DNA from: Bolinopsis microptera
Taxonomy: Eukaryota; Ctenophora; Tentaculata; Lobata; Bolinopsidae
NCBI RefSeq assembly: GCF_026151205.1
Contig: NC_087075.1
Coordinates: forward strand, 9,041,303-9,105,302
Direction of reading: 5' to 3'
DNA length: 64,000 bases
Shown piece by piece: positions 3,861-62,614 of this stretch. The translations under genes and the position numbers were made by a program. The stretch's first letter is position 1, and every line of letters starts with the position of its first letter. Below the pieces are notes generated by a model, which was given only the letters and a program-made list of their open reading frames with translations, was not told the origin of the DNA and made no database searches.

Positions 3861-6168
3861 GTTCGTTTGCGGGAGAAGATAGCCCGGAAGCAGCTGAGAT
3901 ACAACACCTCACACAACAGTTGTTAGACTACGAGGTTAAGAGAGACTGGATCAATTACTCGTAAGTGTTAATTATTTGTTAATTACTCGTTAATTTCTCA
4001 TAAATTAACCTTAACACACTGCTGTGACACTGTTGTGATACTGTTGTAACACTGTTGTGACAATGTTGTGACACTGTTGTGACACTGTTGTGACACTGTT
4101 GTCATACTGTTGTGACACTGTTGTCACACTGTTGTCACACTGTTGTCACACTGTTGTCACACTGTTGTCACACTGTTGTCACACTGTTGTGACACTGTTG
4201 TGACATTGTTGTGACAATGTTGTGACACTGTTGTGACAATGTTGTGACACTGTTGTGACACTGTTGTGACACTGTTGTGACACTGTTGTGACACTGTTGT
4301 GACACTGTTGTGACACTGTTGTGACACTGTTGTGACACTGTTGTGACACTGTTGTGACACTGTTGTGACACTGTTGTGACACTGTTGTGACACTGTTGTG
4401 ACACTGTTGTGACAATGTTGTGACACTGTTGTGACACTGTTGTGACACTGTTATGACACTGTTGTGACACTGTTGTGACACTGTTGTGACACTGTTGTGA
4501 CACTGTTGTGATACTGTTGTCACACTGTTGTCACACTGTTGTGACACTGTTGTGATACTGTTGTGACACTGTTGTGACACTGTTGTGACACTGTTGTGAC
4601 ACTGTTGTGACACTGTTGTGACACTGTTGTGACACTGTTGTGACACTGTTGTGACACTGTTGTGACACTGTTGTGACACTGTTGTGACACTGTTGTGACA
4701 CTGTTGTGATACTGTTGTGACACTGTTGTGACACTGTTGTGACACTGTTGTGACACTGTTGTGACACTGTTGTGACACTGTTGTCACACTGTTGTGACAA
4801 TGTTGTGACACTGTTGTGACACTGTTGTGACACTGTTGTGACACTGTTGTGACACTGTTGTGACACTGTTGTGACACTGTTGTGACACTGTTGTCACACT
4901 GTTGTGACACTGTTGTCACACTGTTGTGACACTGTTGTCACACTGTTGTAATACCGTTGATAAGGACCTATTTCAGGAAGCTGTGTCACCCTAGTATAAC
5001 AGGGTTTGAGCCGCAAGGCCACGGTCACATGATCAAAGGCTTGGAGTTCCAGCGCTTTTATTTTGAAAGTAAGTTAAACAATTAATTAATTAATTAATTA
5101 CACTATCATATTTTCAAAACAATCTTACCCCTAGTAGATAATGCTAGCTACTGATCTAGACTACTATCTGAAAATATGGGTGCAGTGTAAAAGGTTCCCA
5201 AATTTAAAGTAGCACTCAATGACACTTATATTAGTAACATGAACAGTTACTGATAATTACTGACATTTAGTAACAATTAGCAACACTAATTATTAACACT
5301 TTAAGTACAGCTCGGTTACACTTAAAGTAACACTTTAAGTAACACCTTGTAACACTCCAGCTACGACTACTTCACCTCACAAGACCCTCATAATGGATCC
5401 ACAAGTCACGATGCTGAGCCCCGAGTCTGCTGTTATCGCCTACGTTAGGATATGCCAGAAAGCTGATACTTCGTGAGTAGAATAGATAATATAAAGCAGT
5501 AATTAAGTAGTGATTAATAATAAAAACAGTGAAAAAGTAGTTAATTATTTATTAAGTACATAGTATTGCGATGTTTTTATTGTCAGCATATTTTTGTCCA
5601 ATTACTTTTTGTTTCATTTCACCCCTGTTTCACTATAAATTTAGTGTTTTTTATTTCTTATGTACTGTAATATTCTCTGGTCCTAGCTAGACGACACGTA
5701 ACACATTACGTGACGTGTTACACACCGTATATCTAGGGCCTTAATTGTTACATAATACATATTACTGAAGTTAATATCATCTACAGGAAAACTTCCATTT
5801 ATCATACTCTGAACTACTGCAAATCCCGATTTACCGCGCGATAATCTTCTTTCCCAAAATGAGGGCTTTAAGTACATTATGTGAACAATCAAAAACCCGA
5901 TTTACCGCAAAACCCGATTTACCGCAAATTTTTCATTTCCCCAAATTCCGCTTTAAATCTGGGTTTACTGTATTATTATTGAAATGTTATACATCATTTA
6001 GATGTTATCTATAAGTTAAGCTATTAATTTTCCAATTTCCTTCACCTCAGGACCAATACAATCTACTCAATACACTCTAACGAAAGCAGAGTTTGGAAAC
6101 GAATAGGAGAGACATGGCTCAACATTCACTACCATAAATCTAACACTACCAAAGTAGCGACACCGTAA
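3861..6168 (+). CDS. CaMKII association (hub) domain protein, spliced
   Basis: Four exons with GT-AG borders and matching phases: 3861-3960, 4977-5068, 5361-5472 and 6051-6168 (stop TAA). The spliced product ends in about 139 residues matching the association domain of Ca2+/calmodulin-dependent kinase II. Landmarks are EIQHLTQQLLDYEVKRDW, KLCHPSITGFEPQGHG, LEFQRFYFE, SPHKTLIMDPQVTML, AVIAYVRICQ and SRVWKRIGETWLNIHYH. These align with the family's FEP, HRFYFEN, AYIRLTQ and TRVWHRRDGKWQNVHFH. In CaMKII this domain builds the 12-14-subunit hub. No kinase domain is present from the opposite-strand gene to here, so this is either a stand-alone hub protein or the 3' end of a kinase gene whose start lies outside the window. 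The first intron is almost filled by an 11-bp minisatellite. Domain identity is strong; gene extent 5' of 3861 is open. Confidence 0.85.
4013..4955. repeat. 11-bp minisatellite (ACACTGTTGTG), about 85 copies
   Basis: Nearly pure tandem copies of ACACTGTTGTG with a few one-base variants such as TCACACTGTTG and ACAATGTTGTG. It fills most of the intron between hub-domain exons 3861-3960 and 4977-5068. Because 11 is not divisible by 3, all three minus-strand frames stay open and encode the same 11-residue cycle (SQQCHNSVTTV). These frames are products of the repeat, not genes. Confidence 0.97.
5473..6050. other. Last intron of the hub-domain gene
   Basis: Begins GTGAGT and ends TTCACCTCAG. Inside, at about 5886-5940, the phrase 'aacccgatttaccgc' occurs twice, a small internal duplication that resembles the 'accgcgataaaccggg' stretch near 7190. 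No coding exon was found. Confidence 0.6.
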
Positions 6169-9074: not shown

Positions 9075-9760
9075 TAGGGTACGCGTCGCACTACAGTACA
9101 TATCGCACTACAGTACGTGTCGCACTACAGTACGTGTCGCACTACAGTACGTGTCGCACTACAGTACGTGTCGCACTACAGTACGTGTCGCACTACAGTA
9201 CGTGTCGCACTACAGTACATGTCGCACTACAGTACGTGTCGCACTACAGTACGTGTCGCACTACAGTACGTGTCGCACTACAGTACGTGTCGCACTACAG
9301 TACGTGTCGCACTACAGTACGTGTCGCACTACAGTACGTGTCGCACTACAGTACGTGTCGCACTACAGTACGTGTCGCACTACAGTACGTGTCGCACTAC
9401 AGTACGTGTCGCACTACAGTACGTGTTGCACTACAGTACGTGTCGCACTACAGTACGTGTCACACTACAGTACGTGTCGCACTACAGTACGTGTCGCACT
9501 ACAGTACGTGTCGCACTACAGTACGTGTTGCACTACAGTACGTGTCACACTACAGTACGTGTCGCACTACAGTACGTGTCGCACTACAGTACGTGTTGCA
9601 CTACAGTACGTGTCGCACTACAGTACGTGTCGCACTACAGTACGTGTCGCACTACAGTACGTGTTGCACTACAGTACGTGTCGCACTACAGTACGTGTCG
9701 CACTACAGTACGTGTCGCACTACAGTACGTGTCGCACTACAGTACGTGTCCTCTAACAGT
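9075..9760. repeat. 17-bp minisatellite (GTACGTGTCGCACTACA), about 40 copies
   Basis: Very homogeneous tandem copies of the 17-mer; most variants are C/T transitions at the CpG positions (TGTTGCAC, TGTCACAC), as expected from decay of methylated CpG. As with the 11-bp array, 17 is not a multiple of 3, so all three plus-strand frames stay open and give the same 17-residue cycle (HYSTCRTTVRVALQYVS). These are not genes. Confidence 0.97.
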
Positions 9761-34259: not shown

Positions 34260-36612
34260 TTAGTTATCGTCGACTATGATTGCAGTGTAAAATTTGTCAT
34301 ATGAATTGTCGACGGTATAATTAGGGTCTGTTGTTATAGATGAGAGTAGCTGTTTCTTATACGAATCACTAAAGCTTTTAACATCGGGCAGATTTCGTAG
34401 ATCTGTTGGAACATTATTCCAACATTTTGCCCCCAAGTATTGAAAGTTTTTATGTGATGTTGATCTATTAACATATAGGTTGCAGCTTTCGCCGCTCCTA
34501 CTACCTCCTGATATGTAACTAAATTTGTTCATAAAGTTTGTAGGACAATTGTCATGGATGATTCTAAACATATAATTTGACAGATGGAGTTGTCGTCTAA
34601 GATGGAGTGGTAACCATTTCATGTCTCTATAAACATTAAGGCTGCTCTCTGTTTGTCGAACGTTGAGAGCTATTTTGGCTACCTTTTTGTACAGAGTGTC
34701 AAGTTCAGCAAGTTTTGTCTTGCCAGCTCTACAATAGATCGTGTCTAAATAATCGAATTGTGGCAACATGAGTGCATTGGCAAACATTTTCCTATATTTA
34801 ATGGGTAGCAGTGCTTTACTTCTATACATGGCACCAATTATCTTCATGACCTTCTTAATAATATAATCTACATGGCTTTTGAAGTTTAATTTACTATCTA
34901 GAATGAGGCCAAGATATTTTGTCTCTTTGCACTCCTTGATTGTGAAAGTTACCTCATTACATTCAATGGTTAATTCATCATGTTGATCAACAGAATCAAA
35001 CAATAGGAATTCAGTCTTCTTTTCATTGAATGATAATTTATTTACACTGAGCCATTTAAAGATTGTCATAAGTTCTATTTTCATGTTTATAAATGTGCTT
35101 CTGCAGGTTTGATCAAAGAATAGTGCACCATCATCTGCAAATAGAAAGGGCTTAGATAGGTTACAGGCATAAATTATGTCATTTATGAAGATACTAAATA
35201 ATATAGGCCCAATGATGCTTCCTTGTGGTACACCACTCAGAACTTCTAAAAATGAGCTTAGATTGCCATTGATCCTAGTGCATTGATATCTACAAGATAA
35301 GAAGTTCTTAAACCAGGTTAAAGCAATGCCACCAATTCCATAATATGCCAATTTTTGAAGCAATATTTCATGATTCACTGTGTCAAAGGCCTTCTTAAGA
35401 TCAAGAAAGATGATTCCTGGTTTATAAGACTTAGATTTACTCATATATATTTCGTCCATCAGATCGTACATCAGATAAGTTGTGGAGTGATTTTTCCGAA
35501 AGCCATATTGATGCCGGATGAAAAGTTTGTTCTCTTCCATGTAATCAGTGAGTTGCTTGCCGACAAAGTATTCTATAAGTTTTCCTACAAGTGGAAGGAT
35601 GGATATTGGCCTGTAATTATTAGGATCATCTTTCATTCCTGCCTTATGGATGGGATTTACTCTAGCTTTTTTACAAAGGGTTGGTACAACACCTGTATTA
35701 AGGCTCAGATTGACTATGTGGGTCAGTGGCTCAACTATGTGCGGTACAGCTTGCTTAAGTAAAAATAGAGGCACATTGTCATATGAGGCCTTGTCATTCT
35801 TGAGCGTTTCGACATACATTAGGATATCAGTTTCATTTATTTCTTGGAATCTATCAAATGAGATATTAGAAGTTCTAGGAGGTAAAAAATCAGTAAAACT
35901 AACTCTTTCAATATTGGGGGCCTGATTTTGTAATCTTGATCCAACATTTGCAAAATGAAAGTTAAATAGCTCAGGATCATTCTCATTGATAGTTTGACAA
36001 TTAGTTGTACCAGGGGTCATATTTGATGCCAGTTTGATAGTTTTCCATATCCCTTTAAGATCATTCTTGGCACTTTTAACTTGTAGATCATCGATTACAA
36101 TAGCCTTTTTGCAGGTTTTAGCTAATTTATTTCTAATATTTCTCTGAATCTTGTAGCAATCCCAGGCCTCATTACACTTTATACATTTGCTACATGTACC
36201 ACATTCATTGCAATTTCCATTGTCTCTCTTATCCTTCTTTTTACGGAATTTCTTTAGAAGAAAATGTGTATGATTAATGGCATTTAAAAGTTCAGTAGAA
36301 GGTTTATGTATGAACTTTTCATGCCTTTCTATGGTCTTGCAAGGGAAGAAGGTTGCATATGCCTGTTCAATATGATGACAAAGGCCAGCAGTGATAGCTT
36401 CAACATCTGTACTTTCCAATAGTGGACTGTAATCAGAACAGGTATCTAGATAGTCTAAGAATTGTTTAACATTACGTTTACAATGATTTCTAATTTCAAC
36501 CTTCTCAAATTTAGGAGCTATAGGTACTTTACAATCTATCTCACACATAATAGCTTGATGATCTCCTATACGTTCATCAAGAACAGAAGATTGGACAAAA
36601 TCTGCATAACAG
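34260..36612 (-). mobile_element. Non-LTR retrotransposon, 5'-truncated, long intact RT frame
   Basis: A 762-residue frame (36548-34260) begins just after the end of an endonuclease domain: upstream bases still read VLDERIGDHQAI, the catalytic GDHxxI box of APE-type endonucleases. RT motifs in order: NNYRPISILPLVGKLIEYFV, HQYGFRKNHSTTY, FLDLKKAFDTVNHEIL, GVPQGSIIGPILF, FLFADDGALFFD (catalytic ADD) and NEKKTEFLLF. A Cys-rich stretch (CNECGTCSKCIKC) precedes the RT. Type is CR1/jockey-like. It is 5'-truncated near 36612, as target-primed insertion often leaves. The RT itself shows no stop or frameshift. Confidence 0.88.
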
Positions 36613-36615
36613 TTA

Positions 36616-37060
36616 GTGAATATTAGTTAACAGCATGGCTAGTAGAATGGGACTTGCGGAATCCAAATTGGTTTTCACCAAGGATATTTTGTGACAAAGC
36701 GAAACTATAGATACGGCTGTATATCACTTTTTCAAATATCTTACCAAATATGGGCAGAGTAGAGACAGGTCTGTAGTTTCCTACATCCTCTTCGTTTCCT
36801 TTCTTAAATATAGGAGTAACTTTCCCAACTTTCAATACATCGGGAAATACCCCGCTCATCATCAGTTTGTTGAAATGTTGGGCTAAAACAGGGCAGATTA
36901 GATGAGCTGACTTTTTGATCACACGGATTGGGATATCACTAGATTTGCCATTTTCCAACTTGGAAATTATTTCCATGAGCTCAGTATGTGAACAGTCAGT
37001 TAGGAATATAGAGTTGTTGTTGGATGGCAGGAGGTAGTCTTCAAATGTTGAAAATTCAGA
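36616..37060 (-). pseudogene. Non-LTR RT N-terminal fragment
   Basis: Reads LMEIISKLENGKSSDIPIRV, FNKLMMSGVFPDVLKVGKVT, GNYRPVSTLPIFGKIFEKVI and GFRKSHSTSHAVN, then stops at the junction with the 5' end of the next element. It is closely related to the RT at 37656-39401. The catalytic ADD half is missing. Its upstream side joins the dispersed repeat at 37060-37135. Confidence 0.8.
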
Positions 37061-37153
37061 GTAAAACAAAGTATTAGTAAAACAAAGTATTTTATTTATT
37101 AGCAGTGCAATCAATTCATATGATATAATTATAAGAATATAATAGTATGTCAC

Positions 37154-37655
37154 ACCTATTTAACTGTTACGTTCGAGTAGTCGTGCCATGGCTAAATTTA
37201 ACTAGGACCAGTGGTGTCGATTAACATTTTTAAAAGGTGATTCTAAGTGACACAAATGGAAAATTTTAAGAAAAGACGGATCAAAACACAGATCCTAGGA
37301 CAAGGAGACCCCACTGCAGGACCATACATGCTATTGGCTTGTGCATGGCCCAAAAGGTTCCAGTTGTCCAGGAAACTGTACGTAGCTGGTCAACTAGTTT
37401 TGAATTCAGACTAGGCTTGATGAGTTCTGGGGTTTCTAGAGTAAGATTTGATGGTGCCAGGTTTGTTCAGGCGGACATGGAAATTATGCGAGGAATATAT
37501 AGGTATATAAAAATTATATCAATATAAAAATAGATCCAAAAATAGATCCAAAGATTCACACGGCAGTCAGGGAACTTCCAGACAGGATGCTTTTGAAACA
37601 GGTATAATTAGCGCTTTTGTAATTAATTGTATGCAAGGGATGGGATGCTGATTGA
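37154..37655. other. No gene recognised
   Basis: Spacer between two retrotransposon fragments on the same strand; a short plus-strand frame at 37339 has no recognisable feature. Confidence 0.4.
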
Positions 37656-40313
37656 CTAAGCTGGTTCAATGCCCCAGCTATTTAGGGGGAGCCACTCAAT
37701 TTCACGCCCAGGTGTTGTCAATTGCTGGGTTTCAAGTAAGAGCTTTTTGATACGGCTCTTGATAATTGAGATGGGGGAGGAAAGGTCGGAAAATTTACTA
37801 GAGCCAGGGACCATGACATTGTTTTCATTAGGAGTGCATTTGTCGAATATTTTATCAACCAAACTGTTCCATATAGTCGTACCTTTGGAGACAAAATTGT
37901 GTTTAGAAATTTCAAGTTTGAGTCGGGGGACCCGCATAGTTTGGCTACATGCTCTGGAACTTGTTTGGAATAAACTTGTCAGAGAGATAGGTTGATGCAG
38001 TTTCAAGATTTTAAACAGTTCAGTGGATATATGTTGGGTGTACAGGTTGTGGATTGACATGATTTTCTCGGTATTGAATATTGGCTTAGTGTTTTCCAAA
38101 GCAAAGCTCCTTTTTGCGATGTGTTCACTGTATGGTCTTGCACGTGCACATGTTTCATAATACTCTGCCCGGTCAAAGCTTGGTTTGCTTCCAAATAGAA
38201 GGCGTACACATCTTTTTTGGATGGAGAACAGTTTAGATAGTCTATAAGGTGTGACACCACCCCAGCTACTGATACAGTAGCTCATATGAGACTTGAATAA
38301 GGAGTCATACAGCTTATGGTACTCTGTTTCTGGAATAAACTTCATAATACGTTTAATTATAGCTATACTTGTAGTTAGTTTACTTTTTATGTTATCTAGT
38401 TGGGGTTCCCAGGATAGTTCATGGTCTATGATAACACCAAGGAATCTCACTTTATCTACTCGTGTAAGCGTGTTGCCTGATAACGTGAGTGAGTTCTCAG
38501 AGCCATATTCACGAGCACGTGCACAGGACGAGTACCGGCCAGGTCTGAATAACATGTAGACCGATTTGCTTTGGTTAATGTGCAGCAAGTTAGATTCCAT
38601 ATAGTCATTTACAGATTCAAGTACTTTATTAGCATTCAAATAGGCTTCTTGTTCAGTTTTTCCAGCAACAAATATGTTCGTGTCATCTGCAAACAGTATG
38701 AAGTGTCCAAGTTTGCTAGAGTTGGTAATGTCATTAATGTAGAGTAAGAAGAGGAGAGGGCCTAGAACTGATCCCTGTGGTACCCCATATTCAATTTTGC
38801 AGTGATCAGAGTGTGTATTTTGGAAATCAACATACTGCTGTCGGTTACACAAATAGCTTTCAATTAGGTCAAGACAGGGCCCTCTTATGCCATAGTGTTC
38901 AAGTTTGACAAGTAATTTTCTGTGGTCGATTGTGTCAAACGCTTTGCTTAAGTCAATGAATATGCCAATTACGTGATTCTTACTTTCTAGGTTTTTAAGA
39001 ATGTGGTCAATGGAGTAATTGATGGCATGTGCCGTTGAGTGGTTGGATCTGAATCCAAACTGTTTATCGTATATGACCATATGTGAAGTAAAGAAGCTAT
39101 ATAATCGGCAGTAAATTACTTTTTCAAATATCTTACCAAAGATAGGTAGAATGGATATAGGCCTGTAGTTATCAAACAGCTGTGGGTCTCCTTTCTTAAA
39201 TACGGGGGTGACCTTACCTATTTTGAGAATATTTGGAAATAGACCCAGCTTCATGAATGAGTTTAGGAAACCAGCTAGGTGCTTAGAGATTGTAGTGCAA
39301 CATTTCTTAAGAACAGCTATTGATATGTCACTAGCCTTGTCACCCTGGAAGGTTTTAACAATTTTTTCGATTTCCTCAGAATCACAGGGGTTTAAGAACA
39401 TACTGTTGGTAACTCTTGTATAGGCAGGTCAGCTATTGATTCATTTAGAGTGGAGGCAATGGAGTTAAAGTATTTGTTGAACTCGTTTGCAATAACCCTT
39501 CTATCTGTTATTTTTCTGTTGTCGATTATAAATGAGGGTTTGATACTCTTTTTACACTTCCCTCTGAGTTCATTAATGATTTGCCATGTCTTCTTACGGT
39601 CGTGCTTATTTTCTATGATTTGGTTGCAAGAGTAAGTATTTTTTGCAGTGTTAATTACAGATTTGAGGATCCTTCGGTATACCTTGAAGGTTTGCTCGAG
39701 ATCCTGGTTTCCTTCAGGGTTTGCCTTAGTTTTAGATGTAATCCAGGCATCTTTTAATTCATGTTTTTTTTTCAACGGCTGATGAAAGACTATCTGTTAT
39801 CCTGGGGTTATTGATAGGATTCCGTTTAGTAGTTTTTGGCTTTACAAGTTTGCATGTTGAATCAAGTACATGATCAAATAATTTAGTAAAATCCGAGAAT
39901 TCATGAGAAGTGTGGAGCTTTGAGAGGTCAGTGTTCAGTAGGGTTAGGAATTTATTAAGGTTGGCATTGCTGAAGTCGTAGTACTGGACATGTTTTTCAC
40001 TTTTTGGACCAACCTCGAATTCGATGTCAGTGAATTCAAATGTTGGAGCATGGTCACCAATTCTATCTGTTATACAACCTGAGAGAACACAGTTACCAGG
40101 GTCATTTGTGAGGATGTTGTCAATACAAGATGGTTTGCAATTTGGTCTCTCATGTGTAGGTATCGAAATAACAGGAGCGAAACCATTTCTAAATAAGCAT
40201 TCTTCAAAAAGAGTATAGTTGCCATGACCAGCGTCACCATTCACTTTAAGAAGGTCAACATTAAAGTCCCCCATTATACGTACACCAGATTTAGGGAGGA
40301 GTTTACATACATT
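37656..40313 (-). mobile_element. CR1/jockey-like retrotransposon, 5'-truncated, two frame breaks
   Basis: Three overlapping minus-strand frames make one decayed ORF2. First, 40274-39759: end of the APE endonuclease (MGDFNVDLL, SCIDNILTND, DRIGDHAPTF). Second, 39775-39392: linker (TWQIINELRGKCKK, FNKYFNSIAS). Third, 39401-37656: RT (FDNYRPISILPIFGKIFEKV, FGFRSNHSTAHAIN, FIDLSKAFDTIDHRKLL, YGVPQGSVLGPLLFLLYIND, HFILFADDTNIFV), followed by the C-terminal helical region. The frame changes fall near 39765 and 39395. The 5' end at about 40313 abuts a different RT family. The frame breaks indicate it is dead, though the catalytic residues remain. Confidence 0.85.
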
Positions 40314-40985
40314 GTCTTATCTCATGTTCTAGCGGCTCCATGGCTTCAGAGATGTGAGGAACAGTCCTTTGAACAAACTTCCATCTGTGTTGGATGCCAG
40401 AGATGTAGGCTGAGTAGGCTGCTTGAGGCTCAGATTCTGCAATATCAGCTAGCATCTTGATGTCTTTACACCACCCTTGGACCTTATCGGAAATGTACTG
40501 ATCTTTGACACCTGTATTGCCAAGTACTGCACCAAGATGCCGTGTGCCTGATGTTATTTGCATATTGAACTCCCCAAACAATGCCTTGGCCTGGTCGATC
40601 ATCTGTGGGTCTTTTACTACTAAAATGCTCTTAGATGGGTTAGGAAAATAACCATACTTAGGTCCAACTTGGAGCAACTCCTTCCACCACTTATACACGG
40701 CCTCCAATTTCCCACCAGCAGCACTATCATCTGCAAACCACACCTGTTTGATGATGTTTCTCAGGTGGTCGATAAGTGGCTTGGTGCTAAGAGCATATCC
40801 ACCAGTAGCAATATTGTCTCCTTGAGTGAAACCTTCACTGCTCTTGATGATCACTCCCTCACTATTAGCTACATAGAGGTCTGTTGGTTCCCTATAGGTG
40901 TTTTCAAAGTATTTGGCAAGCGGTGGGCAAACATACTGCATTAATCGAGTCTTAATCAGCTTAACGAGACGAAACTTTCAATACT
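40303..40985 (-). pseudogene. RT fragment of the nuclease-tailed retroelement family
   Basis: Reads SSEGFTQGDNIATGGYALST, KQVWFADDSAAGGKLEAVYKW and HLGAVLGNTGVKDQYI, ending where the CR1-like element begins. WFADDSAAGG is the catalytic box; GFTQGDN replaces the usual GxPQG. The last part (SGIQHRWKFVQRTVPHISEA) matches the start of the fragment at 60857-62095, so the two are pieces of one family. N- and C-terminal parts are missing here. Confidence 0.75.
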
Positions 40986-41148: not shown

Positions 41149-42680
41149 TTTGGTACCAAATTGGTAAAAATCGGAAAAATAGAACTTTGTCTCAACTTTT
41201 TGGCGTTAGTTCAACTTTCAAATAACCATAAGCCTTCAGCGGGCGCGCTACTGCAAGCGATGATCTGATTAGAGCAAATTCATTTTACAATGTACGCGTG
41301 TACATAGCCATGTGTATACAGTATACGCGTACTGCGTGACGCGCTTGTTTCACAATTATATTTGCCGCCTTCGGCGGTCGCGCGCTACTGCAAGCGAGAT
41401 GGCTCTGGTTAGAGCAAATGTGCGCGCATTATACTAATGCAAGCCTGATCAGTTAGAGCATGCTCCATTCTCCAATGAGTAATATGTGTACTGTATAAAC
41501 ATTATAGCTTGTAGCACGATGCGTTACTGTGCCGCGCTTGCTCTATCCAGAGCCCTTGCGCTTGCAGTAGCGCGCGCCCGCCTCACGGCGGTAAAAAGGG
41601 CTCTAGCCATGAACCCACCCAACGATTTTGGCACCACTCTACAGTGGTGCCAAAATTTCCCGCGCTTTTTTCCTCATATGCGACGTGTGTAGCCTTTCAG
41701 ACATTGATTGCATAAACGAGGTGTCGTTCGTCACTTCAAGATCGAGTGACAGGGTGCTGACCATGCCCGAACCTAATTGATCATTGATTGGGTCTGAGGT
41801 CACGTGATTATGAGCCTATGAGGTCACGTGACTATGACGTCACCAGACCTTGTCCTCCGTTTCCCGCTCATTGGACCAGGTGAGCTTGCATGCTTGTGAA
41901 TGTAGGTGTAAGTACAGCTGTACTGTAGTTTATACCTAATTAACCCCTATACACTGTCACTATGCACTATAGAAACATGAAAAGTGGTTACTGCATACTG
42001 GAGGGAGAAGTGCCAAGACTACCTGCGCTACATAGACGCTGTTGTCAGCACTGCGCACGCGCGCACGAACCTTCCCATCGGGGTTCGTGGATAGGTGCTT
42101 TTCTTGACTTGTGAAACAAGCGCGCCCGAAGTGGCGCGAAAGCACATGGTTAGGTGAATGCCGCGCCGCGCATTCAATTATGCTTCTCGCAACGCTAGAT
42201 CGGTGAAATGTGCTACTGTGCCTTGCCGAGCTGCGATGAATTGATATTATATATCGTCGATTAACATTATAGCCTGTGCAGCAACACGCGCGTTCACATA
42301 ACCATGTGCTTTTGAGCCACTGCAGCGTGCAGGCGCGCTCGTTTCACACGGGAGGCGAGAGGAAAAGAGTTTAAAGATAAAATAGAGATAAGGATAAAAT
42401 ACATATATAAATAGATAAAGATAGCGATTAGAATATTAGATAGAGATTTTACAGCAATTTTACAAAAATGACACACATGGGCCACCTAATGATATACATG
42501 ATAAACCTGCTAGCGCATGTGCATCATTATTTTTTGACACATAATATAAAATATTTGTTTCAAATTTTAGTCCGTCGACGAGTCCAACTCGGCGCGCGTC
42601 TTAGTAGGTTATAAACCTACAAGGTACGAGGCAAGTGCTACGAAGTAGCGCGCTCTGGGCTAGTAGTACTAGTAGTATTC
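41149..42680. repeat. Patchwork of dispersed repeats, no gene
   Basis: Contains two inverted GC-rich blocks (41225-41430 versus 41525-41605, sharing 'cgcgctactgcaagcg' and its complement). It also has a 265-bp diverged copy (about 41690-41955) of part of the arm of the 57109-60040 element, including 'gaggtcacgtgactatgacg' and 'ctcattggaccaggtgagct', a relative of the 22480 repeat (42110-42240), and the 'taggttataaacctac' palindrome (42604-42619), also found in that arm. No coding region supported. Confidence 0.7.
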
Positions 42681-45688: not shown

Positions 45689-46767
45689 TTTTTAAAAAAT
45701 GACCAGGTCTACTTAAATAACTAAATTATGTTAATATTCTGTTCATGACTGGACGATAAGTTCCTACACCACCCCCCCCAACAGTTTGCATTGTTTATGG
45801 GCAGTGGGCACAGTTACATTATAACGATCACGGATCACACAATTTTTAGTTCTGCATGACGTAATCATGGCGTGTGTACCTCGGTGCAGATAGGAGCACC
45901 TTGAAATTGCCAAGCTGTAGTAGAGATAACAATGTCAACAGAGGGTAAAATACAGATAAGGAAAGTAAACATACGATATAATATCCGTCTGATCACTCTT
46001 CCTGTTCGTGATTGGACGGATCATCGTCACGCGACAGGACACTTTTATTACAAATGGTCGGGATCACGGAGCGCATGGCTGCCCGTACGTTCAGAATAAA
46101 TATAATTGAGTTGATAGTTCGATTGTTCTATCATGGTGTTGGTCACCTACCTTTATTGTGTTTCTTTTGACTTTGCTATCGTAGTATCGTGCTCTGCTCT
46201 GAAAATTGTGATAGAACCTGTTCGAGTTGTTAACAAGACAATCACCTTGTTCTTTGGTTGCAGAATCAACATGTTCTTTGTTTGAGCAACACAAGAATTT
46301 TGAGGAACAAGGAAGCGTTATTGGGCTGTAAAACCAACTCAAATCGATTTCTCGTGCAACGTTGTACAGGTGAGGAACAGTCACAAAAATGAGTTGCTTA
46401 CCTGCTGTGTTTTGTCGTACTCTGCTCTTCGCTCAAGTTCGATCAGTTAAGGTGAGGATTGCCTCGATCTTTCGGTTTCAGCCCTAGATCAAGAGCTGCA
46501 GAACCGAAGGATTAAAATATATGTTGCTTAACTTAAGTTGCTCGCATTCTAAACTATAAAACATCGATTTTGAGGGATAAGGAAGTGTTCATTATAGGTT
46601 CTGAAACCTAGCTAAATCGATTTTTCGTGCAATTTTAGGTTAGAAACGGTCATCAAAATGAGTTAATAAAAAGGTCGATTTCTCGGTTATTTTTGAGCTT
46701 TCGTTCAGAAAATAATTCGGGGCCCTCACAGGGGGGTAACAAGAAGGCGTTACAAGCGTCTCTTAAT
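45689..46767. repeat. Gene-free; decayed copies of a foldback-arm sequence
   Basis: At about 46300-46390 and 46560-46665 the sequence resembles part of the arm of the 57109-60040 element: 'gattttgagg.ataaggaag', 'aaatcgatttctcgtgca' and 'acggtcatcaaaatgagtt'. These are two old tandem-like copies. No gene. Confidence 0.55.
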
Positions 46768-48476: not shown

Positions 48477-50185
48477 AAACAACTGACTAACAAAACGGAA
48501 CATAAAAACTTAAAATAATATAATTATACAGCAGTTTTATCATAACCTAATCATATCCAAAAACTAACTCTAAGTACGCTGTCAAATTTTTTTCTGATTT
48601 TTTTGTTCAATTTTATAAAACTCTCCAGCAAATACAAAATAAAAAGAGCAAAAATTTAACAGGTGAATGGTATATAAATATATACTGGGCGGCGCTCAGC
48701 CTGTCATTCCACCAAATTTCCATTCGGATTATGAACATAAATATAATAGCCTGGGGTCCCCAGGTTAATAAATATTAGCAACATAAATATTGAACAACAT
48801 ATATTCACGCAATTAATAAAAAAACTGACTAACAAAACGGAACATAAAAACTAACATACAGCAGCTTTATGATTTATCATATCCCAAAACTGAATACGTT
48901 GTCAAATTTGTTTTCTCTCTTTCTTTATTCTATTTTTTTGTTAAATTTATTGCAATGTGCTCATCCAACACACAATTAATAAAACAACTGACTAGTAATA
49001 GTGACTAACAAAACGGAACATAAAAACTAATATACAGCAGTTTTATCATATCCCAAAACTGAATAATATGTTGTAAATTTTTTTTTCTTTTTCTGTATTC
49101 TGTTTTTTGTTAAATTTTACTCTTAAGCAAATAAAAAGAACAAAAATTCAACAGCTGAATAGGTATATAGATATTAGCAGCATGAATATTGAATAACACA
49201 CAATTAATTAAACAACTGACTAACAAAACGGAACATAAAACAAATATACAGCAGCTTAATCATATCCCAAAACTGAATACGTTGCCAATTTTTTTTTTCT
49301 CTTTCTTTATTCTGATTTTTTTGTTAAATTTTATTCTGAAGCAAATAAAATGAGCAAAAATTTAACAGCTGAATAGTATATAAGTATTAGCAACATGAAT
49401 ATTGAATAACACACAATTAATAAAACAATTGACTAACAAAACGGAACATAAAAACTTATATACAGCAGCTTTATCATATCCCAAAACTGAATATGTTTTT
49501 TTTTCTTTATTCTGATTTTTTTGTTCAATTTTATTCTGAAGCAAATAAAATGAGCAAAAATTTAACAGCTGAATAGTATATAAATATTAGCAGCATGAAT
49601 ATTGAATAACACATAATTAATTAAACAACTGACTAACAAAACGGAACATAAAACAAATATACAGCAGCTTAATCATATCCCAAAACTGAATACGTTGCCA
49701 ATTTTTTTCTTCTCTTTCTTTATTCTGATTTTTTTGTTCAATTTTATTCTGAAGCAAAAAAATGAGCAAAAATTTAGCAGCTGAATAGTATATTAATATT
49801 AGCAGCATGAATATTGAATAACACACAATTAATTAAACAACTGACTAACAAAACGGAACATAAAACAAATATACAGCAGCTTAATCATATCCCAAAACTG
49901 AATATGTATTCAATTTTTTTTTCTCTTTTTCTTCATTCTGCTTTGATTTTTTGTTAAATTTTATTTTTAAACAACAAAAAAAAAAGCGAAAATTTAACAG
50001 CTGAATAGTATAAAAGTATTCGCAACATGAATATTGAATAACACACAATTAATAAAACAGCTGACTAACAAAACGAACATAAAAACTAACATACAGCAGC
50101 TTAATCATATCCCAAAACTGAATACGTTGTCAAATTTGTTTTCTCTTTTTCTTTATTCTATTTTTTTGTTAAAATTACTGCAATG
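48477..50185. repeat. Satellite-like array of about 210-bp units, eight copies
   Basis: Each unit starts 'aacaactgactaacaaaacg', then 'acagcagctttatcatatcc', 'caaaactgaatacgttg', a T-rich run and 'aatattagcagcatgaatat'. Starts fall near 48479, 48824, 48984, 49213, 49424, 49625, 49838 and 50056. A TTAC-MITE is inserted at 48683-48767. The array ends about 260 bp from the 3' end of the receptor gene. Confidence 0.88.
48683..48767. mobile_element. TTAC/GTAA MITE, copy
   Basis: From TACTGGGCGGCGCTCAGCCT through 'attatgaacataaatataat' to AGCCTGGGGTCCCCAGGTTA. This is the most compact intact copy in the window, about 85 bp. Confidence 0.85.
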
Positions 50186-52702: not shown

Positions 52703-53757
52703 TTAAGGCGGCTTCAGCGTCCGAGTATTGATGCGCTGTCTCCATAAAACTCTATCCGCCATAAGTCCGCCTATTTCTCCAGTGTCGTTGAGACCCGTGT
52801 CAGCTCGTAGGCTGTCAACATAGGTCATGGCTGGTCTCCCCCTACTCCGCACCCCATGAGTTGGTTCCCAAAGTAGCAAGCGGTTTGCGACTAGTTCTGG
52901 GTGCCGGTGGATATGGCCTGCTAGACGCATCCTGCGCTCTTGGATCTTCATGGTTGCTCTCGGTAGGTTGCCATAGACTTCTTTGTTGGTTTTTCGCTGC
53001 TTCCAATCCACATTAAGTGCCATCCTTAGCATTCTAGTGTAGCAGCCATCAATGCGTTTCTTCAATTGCTCTGTCAACGTCCACGTCTCAGAACCATAAA
53101 GAAGTATTGACTCTACAGTAGCAACAAATAGACGGATCTTTAGTCCTCTTCTAAGGTCAGACTTCCACATCTTCTTTAGCTTGTGGCAGGCTGCCCAAGC
53201 CTTAGCTTTTCTGACCCGCAGGTCCCTCTCTGTTGTTGCTATCCAAGCTCCAAGGTAAACAAAGTCTGTCACCTTTTCCAGCTGGTTTCCAGAACAGCTA
53301 TTAAGACTGCTCGCCTCCTCTGTCATGTTCAGAGTCATGAACTTAGTTTTAGTGCCGTTCATGGCTAGCCCAACACTCAGTGCTGCTTTCTCAAGCCTGT
53401 CCAGGAGTAGTTTTGCCCCTTCAATGGTATCAGTGATAAGGGCAACATCATCTGCAAACTCGACGTCTGCGATCTTCTCGGCACCAATCCTTCTACTCCG
53501 TGCAGGCCTGAGAGTGAACCCAGAGTCCGAGTCATCATCGTCTATACTCACTGTCATGATATAGTCAATCACGATAATGAACAAGTACGGGGCAAGAGTG
53601 TCTCCTTGCAGTACTCCAGCCAGGATATCAAAAATGTCTGTTATACCATCGGCTGTAACTACTTTAGCCTTTGTGCTCGTATAGATACCCTCAATGAGCC
53701 GCACTATGGCTTCTGGTATGCCATATGCTTTCAATATCTTCATGAGCAAACCTCTAT
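52703..53757 (-). mobile_element. RTE-type non-LTR retrotransposon, 3' half of RT
   Basis: The frame (plus about 58 residues from an adjacent element) reads KILKAYGIPEAIVRLIEGIY, GVLQGDTLAPYLFIIVIDYI, VEFADDVALITD (catalytic ADD), VTDFVYLGAWI, YGSETWTLTEQLKKRIDGCY, RRMRLAGHIHRHPELVANRL and RSRGRPAMTYVDSL. These are characteristic of RTE/BovB-like elements. No internal stop. The 5' half of the RT and the endonuclease are missing because the sequence joins a multi-hairpin element at about 53757. Confidence 0.85.
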
Positions 53758-53945
53758 ATAGCCTGGAGATATATATACATATCACCGGAGACTCGCGGGC
53801 GGAACAAAATATTGCATATGTCCCCGAGGGCTCTAGCCCGAGGAGGACATATTTTCGTATAGCACGGAGGGCCCAATTGGGCCCGAGTGCTATACGATTT
53901 TTCCGCCCGCGGGTCGAGGTGATGTGGATTATATCCACCAGCGTG
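53758..53945. mobile_element. Multi-hairpin block, copy 2, at the RT break
   Basis: Reverse-orientation copy of 44313-44490: CTCGCGGGCGGAAC...CCGCCCGCGGGTC outer stem, ATATGTCC...GGACATAT and CGTATAGCAC...GTGCTATACG inner stems. The third, alternating CG hairpin is lost. It ends 'tatatccaccagcgtgagc', matching the TIR of the 43721 element. Confidence 0.9.
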
Positions 53946-54308
53946 AGCTTTTTCTTACAGATATTAGTTTTTACTTTAGTTTCTTCAAGAGATCCGTTTT
54001 TAATTTAGTTTCACTTTTACTTTCAACATGTTTTTAATACGATAGTTCCGCCCTCGTCCCTCGAGGCGAGGAATGATATCATGTATATCCATCAGCGGGC
54101 GTTTATCACGAAGCTTCAGTTTGCAACAATCACAGCAAATCAATGTACAAGATTTCAGAAAAGTTACGAAAAAATCATGTTGCTTTTGGTTTAAGATGTA
54201 AAACAGGCCAAAATGACTGACTATAGAACGAAAAACCGGCTGCTATCAAATAATGTTTCAGCTCATTGTTTCAGCTACATATTTTAATGTAAACGATCAA
54301 AATATAGG
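53946..54308. other. No gene; further hairpin-element end
   Basis: A second TATATCCATCAGCGGGCG end lies at about 54083-54100, preceded by 'ccctcgaggcgagg'. Nothing else recognised. Confidence 0.5.
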
Positions 54309-56756: not shown

Positions 56757-57050
56757 CAGTGGCGTAACAAAGGGCCCTGCTGACCCCGCTGTGCAGGGGG
56801 GCGCCGTCTTAGGGGGGGCGCCAAATCGTCGTTTGAATGTGGGACAATTTCGAAAACTTAACTAAAGTACTAGCAAAACTGCGCGTTTTGCTCTAGATAC
56901 ACACTTTTTTAGAGATTTTACCGGCGTATCCTCTAAAATCACCTATTTTGTTCAATTTTAGGGAGGGGCACCAAAAGGGGAGGGGGCGCCAACAGGGCCA
57001 GGGGGGCGCCTTTTCGGCAGGGGGCGCCAACAGGCAACGTTACGCCACTG
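56757..57050. mobile_element. hAT MITE with perfect 8-bp target duplication
   Basis: TIRs CAGTGGCGTAAC / GTTACGCCACTG, typical of hAT elements, flanked on both sides by GCTGAGAC (56749-56756 and 57051-57058). 294 bp, non-coding, with several GGGGGCGCC words inside. Confidence 0.95.
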
Positions 57051-57108
57051 GCTGAGACATGTGTACACCTCACAGCAAGTAGACGAAATTGGGTCTAACT
57101 TGTGGAAG

Positions 57109-60040
57109 TAGGGCCTGTCGTGATATCATGGATCGCTTAGGTTCCACCAGGATCTGGTAGTCCTCATAATTCTGCGGCCTCTATGTGTCGTCATCTCGCA
57201 CAACTCTTTAAGAATCTTGTGGATTTGGCATGTGAAAATTTGCAGCCCTCCAGACATTGATTGGGTTAACGAGGTGTCGTACGTCACCTCAAGATCGGGT
57301 GACAGGGGGCTGACCAGGCCAGAACCCAATTGATTGGGCCTGAGGTCACGTGATTATGAGCCTGAGGTCACGTGACTATGACGTCACCAGACCTTCCTCT
57401 CCGTTTCCCGCTCATTGGACCAGGTGAGCTTGCATGCATGTGAATGTGGGTGTAAGTATAGCTGTACTGTAGTTTATACCTAATTAAACCCCTATAGAAA
57501 CCGACAATTTATTTTCTGGCAGAAAGCTAGAAATTTACCAAAATATCGTCATTGTTTTAAATTTATTTTGATGACCATTCCTGACCTAAAATCGCACGAG
57601 AAATCGATTAAACTTGGTTTCAGAACTCAACAATGCTTCCTTATGCCTCAAAATCCATGTTTTATCGATACAATCAACATATCGATCCTGTAGTTCAACT
57701 TATTACTTAAAGGGTTCAAGTATAGTTACGCGGTAGACAAACTAAAACAAAATTGTAGGTTTATAACCTACCAGGACGTGTGCCGAGTTAAGCTCGAGTC
57801 GAAGGTAATATTTGGAACAAATATTTTACGAGTATCACCCGTTAAAAACAAAACACCAGTTTAATTGTCCTTTTGTCTGAACCATATGGTTAAGTGTTAG
57901 CTGTATACAATACGTCAAAAAATCATATCAACGAATCGTATCAAAGTCCATCATCAGTTAGTAACAGAGTAGAGATCAGAGCAGAACGAAGGAACATGCT
58001 TGCTTGCGGGAATCTTTTCTGAAATATTGTCGACAGGTTAAAATCAATTGCATTTCTGTTACTCTAAAAAGTACTTTTCTAAAAGTAAAATATGAATGAA
58101 TAAAAACCTCCGAAATAAGTGATACATCATAAACAAACAAAGTCCGTAATTTGCTGATACGTGTTCTATGCTCACACTCCGTCAACTTCTGTCTTAATCT
58201 ACGGATATTGAACGAATTGTAACAAAAAGAATAAAAAATTCACGTGTAAAGTTGCAAGTAATAATATATCTAATAGCTTGATCATATATTCAGCGACAAT
58301 ATTTACAAGGGAAATCGAAACTACATACTTGAAGATGTTGGCTTTACTGTTAAGAGATATCAATAATTCCGATTCAGCATAAAATTGAACAAGTTCCTCA
58401 GCCACCAAGGTCAGAATTCTGTTAATCTGTACCTTCGGTTGCTGGTCACTTCTAAGAAGTAATAACTGAAGCACTCTCCTAGTCGAAGGAATCGTTTGAG
58501 GTAACTCAAGTGGCTCTCCAATAAGAGAGGAAAACTTCATTTTTGAATGGAAAATTGTAACGAATTGAAAATGTAACGATTAAAATAATGCTTGCATTTC
58601 TTGCGTAATTTAGCAGCCTTTTTTAGCGTAATCTTAATTAAAACTGCTGCCATTGGTCGATATATTCTATCAGTAGATAAGCTGTTGCAATTGGCCACAC
58701 ATTGTTAACTAATGCACCCTACTAACGCGTGTCTTACTCCGCAAAAGCATCCAAAAGCTATACACTAATCCTACCTAATCTTACACTCAGCTCTTATGGC
58801 TATTCTACACTCATACTAGAACATTCTAAAAGATCGATTATTACGCTAAAACCCTGCTGTGTACAGCTTATTGGCCACTGTGTATGTGCTCGTAGTCATA
58901 TAATATATATGTGTGAAAAGATGCCGATAATACTTCCAGATTATTTCTCGAATAAATTCATAAATAACCTTATAAAATAAAACATTATATTAATATAAAA
59001 AGTAGTTGTCTTTTCCATTTATACTGTACCAATCGCCGACTCACTTTTAGCATTTAGCCTCACCAGCGCAACTTGAATTATATTAGAAATCGTTAACAAA
59101 ATATTTTACGAAAGTAGATCTGCTGGATTTGCAAAGTGCTAGTAATAACCAAAGATGGTCACCTTTTTATTTCATTACATTCCCAGGTAGTAGGTTTACG
59201 AAAATTGAAATACCAGACACTTTAAAAAAGCTGCCCAACTGAAATTGCACAAATTGCAATACAACTGCCACATAACACAAGGTTTTTATACATATAAGTT
59301 TATTTAACGGGTGATACTCGTACAATATTTGTTCCAAATATTACCTTCGACTCGAGCTTAACTCGGCACACGTCCTGGTAGGTTATAAACCTACAATTTT
59401 GTTTTAGTTTGTCTACCGCGTAACTATACTTGAACCCTTTAAGTAATAAGTTGAACTACAGGATCGATATGTTGATTGTATCGATAAAACATGGATTTTG
59501 AGGCATAAGGAAGCATTGTTGAGTTCTGAAACCAAGTTTAATCGATTTCTCGTGCGATTTTAGGTCAGGAATGGTCATCAAAATAAATTTAAAACAATGA
59601 CGATATTTTGGTAAATTTCTAGCTTTCTGCCAGAAAATAAATTGTCGGTTTCTATAGGGGTTTAATTAGGTATAAACTACAGTACAGCTATACTTACACC
59701 CACATTCACATGCATGCAAGCTCACCTGGTCCAATGAGCGGGAAACGGAGAGGAAGGTCTGGTGACGTCATAGTCACGTGACCTTAGGCTCATAATCACG
59801 TGACCTCAGGCCCAATCAATTGGGTTCTGGCCTGGTCAGCCCCCTGTCACCCGATCTTGAGGTGACGTACGACACCTCGTTAACCCAATCAATGTCTGGA
59901 AGGCTGCAAATTTTCACATGCCAAATCCACAAGATTCTTAAAGAGTTGTGCGAGATGACGACACATAGAGGCCGCAGAATTATGAGGACTACCAGATCCT
60001 GGTGGAACCTAAGCGATCCATGATATCACGACAGGCCCTA
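57109..60040. mobile_element. Mutator-like foldback, 737-bp arms, 9-bp target duplication
   Basis: The arms 57109-57846 and 59304-60040 are inverted copies with few differences. The element ends TAGGGCCTGTCGTGATATC and its complement. It is flanked by the same 9 bases, TTGTGGAAG, at 57100-57108 and 60041-60049. Long TIRs with 9-bp duplications fit Mutator-like or foldback transposons. The 1.46-kb interior carries a spliced minus-strand gene (58064-58540) unlike a transposase. Arms contain GGTCACGTGACTATGACGTC and a 'taggtttataaccta' palindrome. Each arm includes an identical-looking 67-codon open stretch (MGSGLVSPLSPDLEVTYDTS), not thought to be coding. Confidence 0.88.
58064..58540 (-). CDS. 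Spliced 105-residue protein inside the foldback element
   Basis: Three exons with good splice signals and matching phases: 58540-58329 (donor GTATGT), 58198-58108 (acceptor CGTAG, donor GAG/GTTTTT) and 58078-58064 (acceptor CTTTTAG). The product begins MKFSSLIGEPLELPQTIPST and continues RRVLQLLLLRSDQQPKVQIN, RILTLVAEELVQFYAESELL, KLRQKLTECEHRTRISKLRT and LFVYDVSLISEKSTF. It is helical and leucine-rich; no domain recognised. No signal peptide or TM segment. It is the only gene in the element and could be a captured host gene or an accessory gene of the transposon. Confidence 0.5.
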
Positions 60041-60049
60041 TTGTGGAAG

Positions 60050-60856: not shown

Positions 60857-62095
60857 TTAAAGAACTGGCTCCAAATTTATATCTAATTCTGCTATTTTTA
60901 CTGCACTACTACTTTTAAACCCTCTCTCTCCTCTAAGAGCTATGATTGTTGTTCTCAATAGGTCAAATCTTACTCTCTTCCTAATAAATGTCATTGCCTC
61001 ACTATATCGTTGGCCTGATTTCCTAGATAGTTTATCCGCTAACTTCTTGAAGAACTTATTTGCTTCCCTTCCCATACCCCCAGTGGTTGATAGGACTATC
61101 GGTGTAAACGTCCCATGTTCGACTTCTACAATCCTTTTATTGTATAAATTCTTTTTCTGTCTCTCATGGCTATTGTACATAGTGGTTGGAGATCCAAGAG
61201 CCTTATTGGAAGGAGCTTGAGCATGAAATACTCTTACATCTAAAAATGCCCTTTCCAATGGGTTCCATACACTCCTAGCACTAACATCTAATCTAGCTCC
61301 ATCTGCTTTGTTGGCCCCTGCAGGAAGTTCTCTCCCGTTGACAGGAATGAGGAGAGGTTCAGTGGTAACATCTTTACAGCCAGCAGTTTCTAATAGCTCT
61401 GCTATCACATCTCTCAATGAATTGTGGCGGAGAGATACATACCCACCCCTTTTGCATATCAATGAGTGGTTTATTGAGTTGTCACTTCCACATACACCTT
61501 TTCTTGCAGCATCTTTTATTCCAAAGTTGTACCTAAGGGCTAGGGCGTCATTGAATTCTTGTTTGTTGAGACAGAATCCAAATGATTTGAGTGGGAGTGA
61601 TGAAAGCCAGGAACTTGCCCCTTTCTCTGATGTAAGATCTAATTGCAATTTTTGGGTTTCATTTAGGTCTTTTGTAACCTCTTCTTTTCTCTCTTTGAAA
61701 AACTCTATCCTTGATTTTCGGATTTGGGTCTTGATCTCGACAAGTTTTTCCTGATCGTCATAAAAATCTGGGTTTTGTTTGTATATTGCTTCTGTCAGAT
61801 CTGATGTTACTTGGCATGAGTACTTGTACTCTAGGTCAGACATCAAACTTAGGTCATATATACCAAGACCTCCTTCTTTGACTGGTAATGCAAAGAGTTT
61901 TCTGCTTGTTTCGTTGGTTCCAAAAGATCTATCTAATATTGCTGGTATAAAGGATTCTTGAATTTTGTATTCTAGTCTTTTAAGGTATTGACTGATGCCA
62001 GGTGTTGTTCGGCATACATAATTCCATCTTTTAGATAACCCATAGATAATTCCATTAATAACCATTAAAAGTTGCTTTGTCATTTGTAAAATCAA
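60857..62095 (-). mobile_element. C-terminal part of a retroelement with nuclease-like tail
   Basis: A 412-residue frame. The start (SKRWNYVCRTTPGISQYLKR, FALPVKEGGLGIYDLSLMSD) follows on from the RT in the family seen at 40303-40985. After a Cys-containing segment comes RLDVSARSVWNPLERAFLDV, RVFHAQAPSN, RIVEVEHGTFTPIVLSTTGG and MGREANKFFKKLADKLS. The D-x(n)-DVRVF, EVEH and TTGGMG blocks look like a restriction-type (PD-(D/E)XK-like) endonuclease, as some non-LTR retrotransposons carry at the C-terminus. The RT core is missing. Stop codon intact; no internal break. Family name uncertain. Confidence 0.65.
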
Positions 62096-62384
62096 AAACG
62101 AAAAGCCCTACGCTTAACGCGCGCGGCATTTTTTCTGCAGCTGCCTAGCTTCAAGCTTGTAGCCGCTAACATCAAAGCCGCCGCGCGCGCCCAGTGCTGG
62201 GGTGCATTCTCATTAACAATTAAACTTGGTCAAAGATATTTATATACAATTCCTAAATTAAATCAATAATCATGTTAATATGAGTATTCAACACTACTCG
62301 ACAACAAATATTTGCCGGCCCATCAACGATTCAGTCGCCGAAACAAAAATCAAATGTTTGCTTTTTCGTTTCGGGGACTGTTTT

Positions 62385-62465
62385 TGTAGGTTTACAACCT
62401 ACCAGGACGCGCGCCGAGTTGGACTCGTCGGAACAGATATTTTACGAGTATCACCCGTTAAGGAC
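62385..62465. repeat. Fragment of the Mutator-like arm
   Basis: Reads 'gtaggtttacaacctaccag', 'gacgcgcgccgagttggact' and 'attttacgagtatcacccgt', matching the inner end of the 57109-60040 arm. A reverse copy is at about 42555-42625. Confidence 0.8.
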
Positions 62466-62614
62466 TGTTTGAACTCAGTACTATATCCGACTAATCACAC
62501 TTTATAATGGTTAAAATACAAAGTAAAAAGATTTTCCTCGATGGGCCGGCATTCGCAACCGCGAAACGTTTTGAGTACGACAAACGATGACACCACCACC
62601 AGCCGTTAATTGAT

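Follow-up and report, generated by a model that had tools for sequence, protein, structure and literature searches.

A 2,932-bp element in the genome of the ctenophore Bolinopsis microptera is, taken as a whole, probably a non-autonomous Mutator/Foldback-type DNA transposon, apparently young, with mosaic arms and no recognisable transposase. It occupies positions 57109-60040 of the 64,000-nucleotide stretch that we analysed (contig NC_087075.1, positions 9,041,303 to 9,105,302; hereafter the window, to which all coordinates refer). The long, near-identical arms and the exact 9-bp duplication that flanks them give good support to one transposition event by a Mutator/Foldback-like element, in agreement with a first-pass annotation that had proposed one transposition by a Mutator-like mechanism.

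The left arm lies at 57109-57846 on the plus strand and starts with TAGGGCCTGTCGTG, and the right arm lies at 59303-60040 on the minus strand. Each is 738 bp long, 1 bp more than first described, and they differ at 3 positions (57248, 57364 and 57826 in left-arm coordinates) and enclose an interior of 1,456 bp (57847-59302). The 9-bp duplication TTGTGGAAG, which had also been noticed at first pass, can be read directly from the sequence on both sides of the element (57100-57108 and 60041-60049, plus strand). These two flanking copies are the only ones on the plus strand of the window, and the minus strand has none. At the spacing of the element, a 9-bp match is found at 2 of 61,028 positions in the unmasked window and at 2 of 51,411 positions when 17 tandem-repeat stretches are masked, the element itself being one of the two in each case. 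The exact repeat is above chance and marks one insertion. The two arms have symmetric ends, with the terminal sequence TAGGGCCTGTCGTGATATCATGGATC as an inverted pair. The 24-base terminus occurs at no other place in the window, and when 19 bases were searched with as many as 5 mismatches allowed, three further sites came up, all of them weak. No second complete copy of the element was found within the window, the arm and terminus patterns had no matches in three viral scans and one genome scan, and Rfam returned no family at gathering score over the window.

Mutator-like elements (MULEs) make target-site duplications of 8-11 bp, and their terminal inverted repeats often reach hundreds of bp (PMC6446971). 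The present element, with its exact 9-bp duplication and its 738-bp arms that differ at 3 positions, falls within this description. The very long modular inverted arms, with little or no coding interior, are likewise what characterizes Foldback elements. Arthropod MULE arms, as described in PMC13359780, measure 20-95 bp in most species, with extremes of 13-1193 bp, and most carry a conserved G/C within the first three bases; this is a tendency rather than a definition, and the ends of the present element, which open with TAGGGCC and have one G/C in the first three bases, fit it only partly. Eukaryotic MULE transposases are mostly longer than 300 aa according to the same source. The sole frame of at least 100 aa inside the element has 126 aa and is without a Pfam match, which supports the earlier statement that the interior has no transposase. 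In animals MULEs are rare, with a median of 0 (PMC8277862). The small divergence between the arms may reflect youth or recent gene conversion. On the preferred reading, a transposase supplied from elsewhere would bind the long arms and move the whole 2.9-kb unit, and a 9-bp staggered cut would leave the observed TTGTGGAAG on either side.

Two other accounts of the arms have to be weighed against this. Assembly errors are a possible source of long near-perfect inverted repeats, yet it is scarcely credible that the structure is an artefact of this kind or a chance inverted repeat, given that the arms differ at 3 positions, that their inner flanks differ and that the exact 9-bp duplication lies immediately outside them. 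The arms could also derive from another superfamily with 8-9-bp duplications, among which is Merlin, or the foldback could have a different origin, like that of Galileo, which belongs to the P superfamily. No recognisable transposase identifies the family, and the foldback form has been suggested to have arisen independently from different lineages (PMC4079207), but a MULE is the best fit for a 9-bp duplication combined with arms of hundreds of bp (PMC8277862, PMC6446971), and we consider such an origin quite unlikely.

Both arms are made up, mosaic-like, of short modules, which can also be found by themselves in the neighbouring DNA. In a BLAST search of the arm against the window, the matching fragments fall in three parts of the arm (positions 133-388, 401-582 and 645-737), leaving the outer 132 bp without a match. 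Arm positions 133-388 have a copy at 41688-41951 (plus strand, 89% identity). Positions 401-582 have two tandem-like copies at 46261-46715 (minus strand), in which arm positions 401-557 match 46556-46715 at 79% and arm positions 457-582 match 46261-46390 at 72%; the two pieces are similar to one another as well. One of them overlaps a minus-strand frame of 113 aa, measured from stop to stop (46091-46432). Fragment limits are those of BLAST, as a more permissive local alignment extended two of the fragments over long stretches of low identity. Within the left arm itself, two tandem 22-bp units lie at 57335-57378 (plus strand, 91% identity). Since the fragments match only parts of the arm, they show no other whole copies of the element; rather, the arms contain modules that are found elsewhere.

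The innermost module, here called module M, occupies the inner end of the arm, reads TTGTAGG at one end and CCCGTTAA at the other, and is 93 bp long in the left arm (57753-57845, plus strand). It is repeated in the right arm (59304-59396, minus strand), and in both arms it ends 1 bp short of the inner end of the arm. Arm positions 645-737 match a solo copy of 78 bp at 62384-62461 (plus strand), and positions 645-720 match a degenerate copy at 42547-42622 (minus strand), around which no duplication was seen. The solo copy looks like a separate small insertion because an exact 9-bp duplication of its own, GGACTGTTT, flanks it at 62375-62383 and 62462-62470; once tandem arrays are masked, the same test at this spacing is passed by 1 of 57,463 positions. 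It has no clear terminal inverted repeat, and it possibly represents a separate family of mobile elements of very small size. When folded as RNA, module M gave z-scores of -1.45, -0.59 and -0.94, with hairpins no better than those of shuffles, and this comparison thus yielded no evidence of selected RNA structure. The first-pass annotation had taken the arm fragments for an older family. The four fragments do exist, but the one at 62384-62461, with its own duplication, is better read as an independent module insertion. We rejected a reading in which every fragment is a broken copy of the element, given that each is a partial arm match and that this copy has a 9-bp duplication of its own.

Module M in the left arm has AAACAAAA on both sides, whereas in the right arm the same sequence stands on the outer side only and the inner side is without a duplication. 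As evidence of an insertion duplication the left-arm bracket is only suggestive and may be chance, because it is an 8-bp match in A-rich DNA and 5 of 57,268 positions pass at the same spacing, as do 4 of 5,740 tests where the surroundings are comparably rich in A. The presence of module M in both arms, bracketed by AAACAAAA on the left and ending 1 bp before the inner ends, suggests that the arms were copied onto each other. On the simplest account, module M, as a small mobile insertion, would have entered one arm; it could then have reached the other by arm-to-arm conversion, or the inverted duplication could have formed after its arrival.

Other repeats and coding remains surround the element. 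About 50 bp to the left of its left duplication lies a short element of 294 bp (56757-57050), which we take to be hAT-like, with the ends CAGTGGCGTAAC and GTTACGCCACTG and an exact 8-bp duplication, GCTGAGAC. Long tandem arrays are found at 4016-4949 (period 11 bp), 9079-9750 (17 bp) and 49002-50173 (about 212 bp). Long minus-strand frames at 34260-40977, 52703-54004 and 60857-62107 resemble pieces of non-LTR retrotransposons, mostly as judged by eye; among them, only 52703-54004 matched the reverse transcriptase family RVT_1 in Pfam, and the frames at 60857-62107 and 40303-40977 had no Pfam match. Across the window, Pfam gave eukaryotic families, with PROPPIN, RRM_7 and reverse transcriptase above cut-off and 7tm_1 and LDL-receptor below it, which make an animal host probable.

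A spliced gene inside the element is weakly supported. The interior has a GC content of 0.337, against 0.421 in the left arm, and no second copy in the window. It had been annotated as holding a three-exon minus-strand gene with clean splice sites, namely exon 1 at 58329-58540 (ATG at 58540, donor GTATGT at 58328), exon 2 at 58139-58198 (60 nt) and exon 3 to the stop at 57976-58018, its end derived from the product; the introns are then 58328-58199 and 58138-58019 and the spliced reading gives 104 aa plus a stop. The GT/AG sites are indeed there, and for exons 2 and 3 they are the only signal, but the gene is not established by them. The frame of exon 1 stays open past the donor to 58199, so that a stop-to-stop frame of 126 aa (58199-58579, minus strand) continues through the proposed intron 1. 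Many rival splice models, at least 25, fit the interior, and dinucleotide shuffling of the interior produced, under our own splice-site rules, a model with two introns and 105 aa or more in 13 of 300 cases. With models of this kind in shuffled DNA, we rejected the splice sites as proof of a gene.

What the interior derives from can be read in more than one way, and it may hold a short coding remnant. That it is a captured host gene or gene fragment, now expressed as a putative spliced transcript in the manner of a Pack-MULE, is compatible with the Mutator/Foldback reading of the element but rather unlikely. In its favour, the 126-aa stop-to-stop frame was reached by 8 of 1,000 interior shuffles and the longest two-intron model, of 128 aa, by 2 of 300, and Ssk-FB4 in flies offers a precedent (PMC8277862). 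Against it stand, besides the frame that runs on across intron 1, searches that recovered no homologue. The 126-aa frame had no Pfam match at E 0.1 and a one-intron reading had none up to E 10; the PDB gave two chance-level matches (E 0.81 and 0.84), and the lone NCBIfam match, at 16.3 of 570 bits, was far below cut-off. Pattern searches with the peptide of exon 1 gave 32 stretches in viral contigs, and those with the exon-1+2 peptide gave 258 in bacterial and archaeal genomes, with no relative confirmed in these collections, which would not be expected to contain an animal parent gene. Exon 1 had an ordinary codon score, which 10 of 70 stop-free control stretches and 3 of the 5 alternative reading frames of this DNA exceeded, with a small training set. 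Predicted by AlphaFold from the single sequence, exon 1 was helical, and the model was poor (mean pLDDT 63.1, pTM 0.43).

Alternatively, the coding stretch could be the remnant of an accessory gene of the transposon, or of a multi-copy gene of another mobile element, and not a captured host gene, a reading that we consider less likely than not. Its N-terminal pattern may resemble that of multi-copy uncharacterised proteins of invertebrates; however, the same searches retrieved no homologue, with nothing beyond the NCBIfam match below cut-off, and the stretch has no second copy in the window. Decidedly unlikely is the most elaborate reading, a young Pack-MULE of an animal in which a small, new spliced gene is carried and expressed, while the arms preserve a nested insertion, module M with a duplication of 8-9 bp of its own, that was later copied from one arm to the opposite one.

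The closest known elements are Ssk-FB4 in Drosophila (PMC8277862) and Tm1/Cg-1 in nematodes (PMC3169594), and foldback elements carrying genes or transcripts are thus already described from flies and nematodes in these two sources. The first-pass remark that gene capture of the Pack-MULE type is described mainly in plants was fair but incomplete in view of both. According to PMC8277862, no Pack-MULE was found in the reference genomes, and the Ssk-FB4 elements of Drosophila populations are named Pack-MULEs. Fly FB4 has arms of about 700 bp and 9-10-bp duplications, given there as grounds for its assignment to MULEs, and it shares both traits, and its non-autonomous state, with the present element. 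FB4 arms are described as repetitive, whereas the present arms have one 22-bp tandem pair and mosaic modules. Ssk-FB4 further carries a spliced gene with a known parent, Ssk; in the present element the gene itself is doubtful and no parent gene is known. Tm1 of root-knot nematodes resembles the element in its composite arms and mostly 9-bp duplications, and holds inside it the Cg-1 transcript with exons and introns (PMC3169594). Its arms differ in consisting mostly of 13-15-bp tandem repeats with asymmetric end motifs, where the present ends are symmetric, and that source reports no obvious protein-coding potential for Cg-1-type elements. The Drosophila virilis foldback Tetris, as presented in PMC4079207, has 8-10-bp duplications, complete copies without conserved ORFs and no autonomous copy found, much as here; its TIR-220 repeats are linked to satellite DNA, and nothing of that kind was seen in the present element. 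Rehavkus and other animal MULEs share the 9-bp duplication, but Rehavkus has arms of 26-400 bp and a transposase ORF with a PHD finger (PMC6446971), in contrast to the 738-bp arms without such an ORF described here.

As the evidence stands, the element is an ordinary non-autonomous transposon. Should its gene prove real and expressed, the short list of Pack-MULEs reported from animals would grow by one. Regardless of the gene, a module that occurs solo with a 9-bp duplication and also inside both arms provides a case in which the growth of foldback arms, and the maintenance of their similarity, can be tested, and the nested insertion of module M, if true, would directly record how the arms of a foldback element become homogenised.
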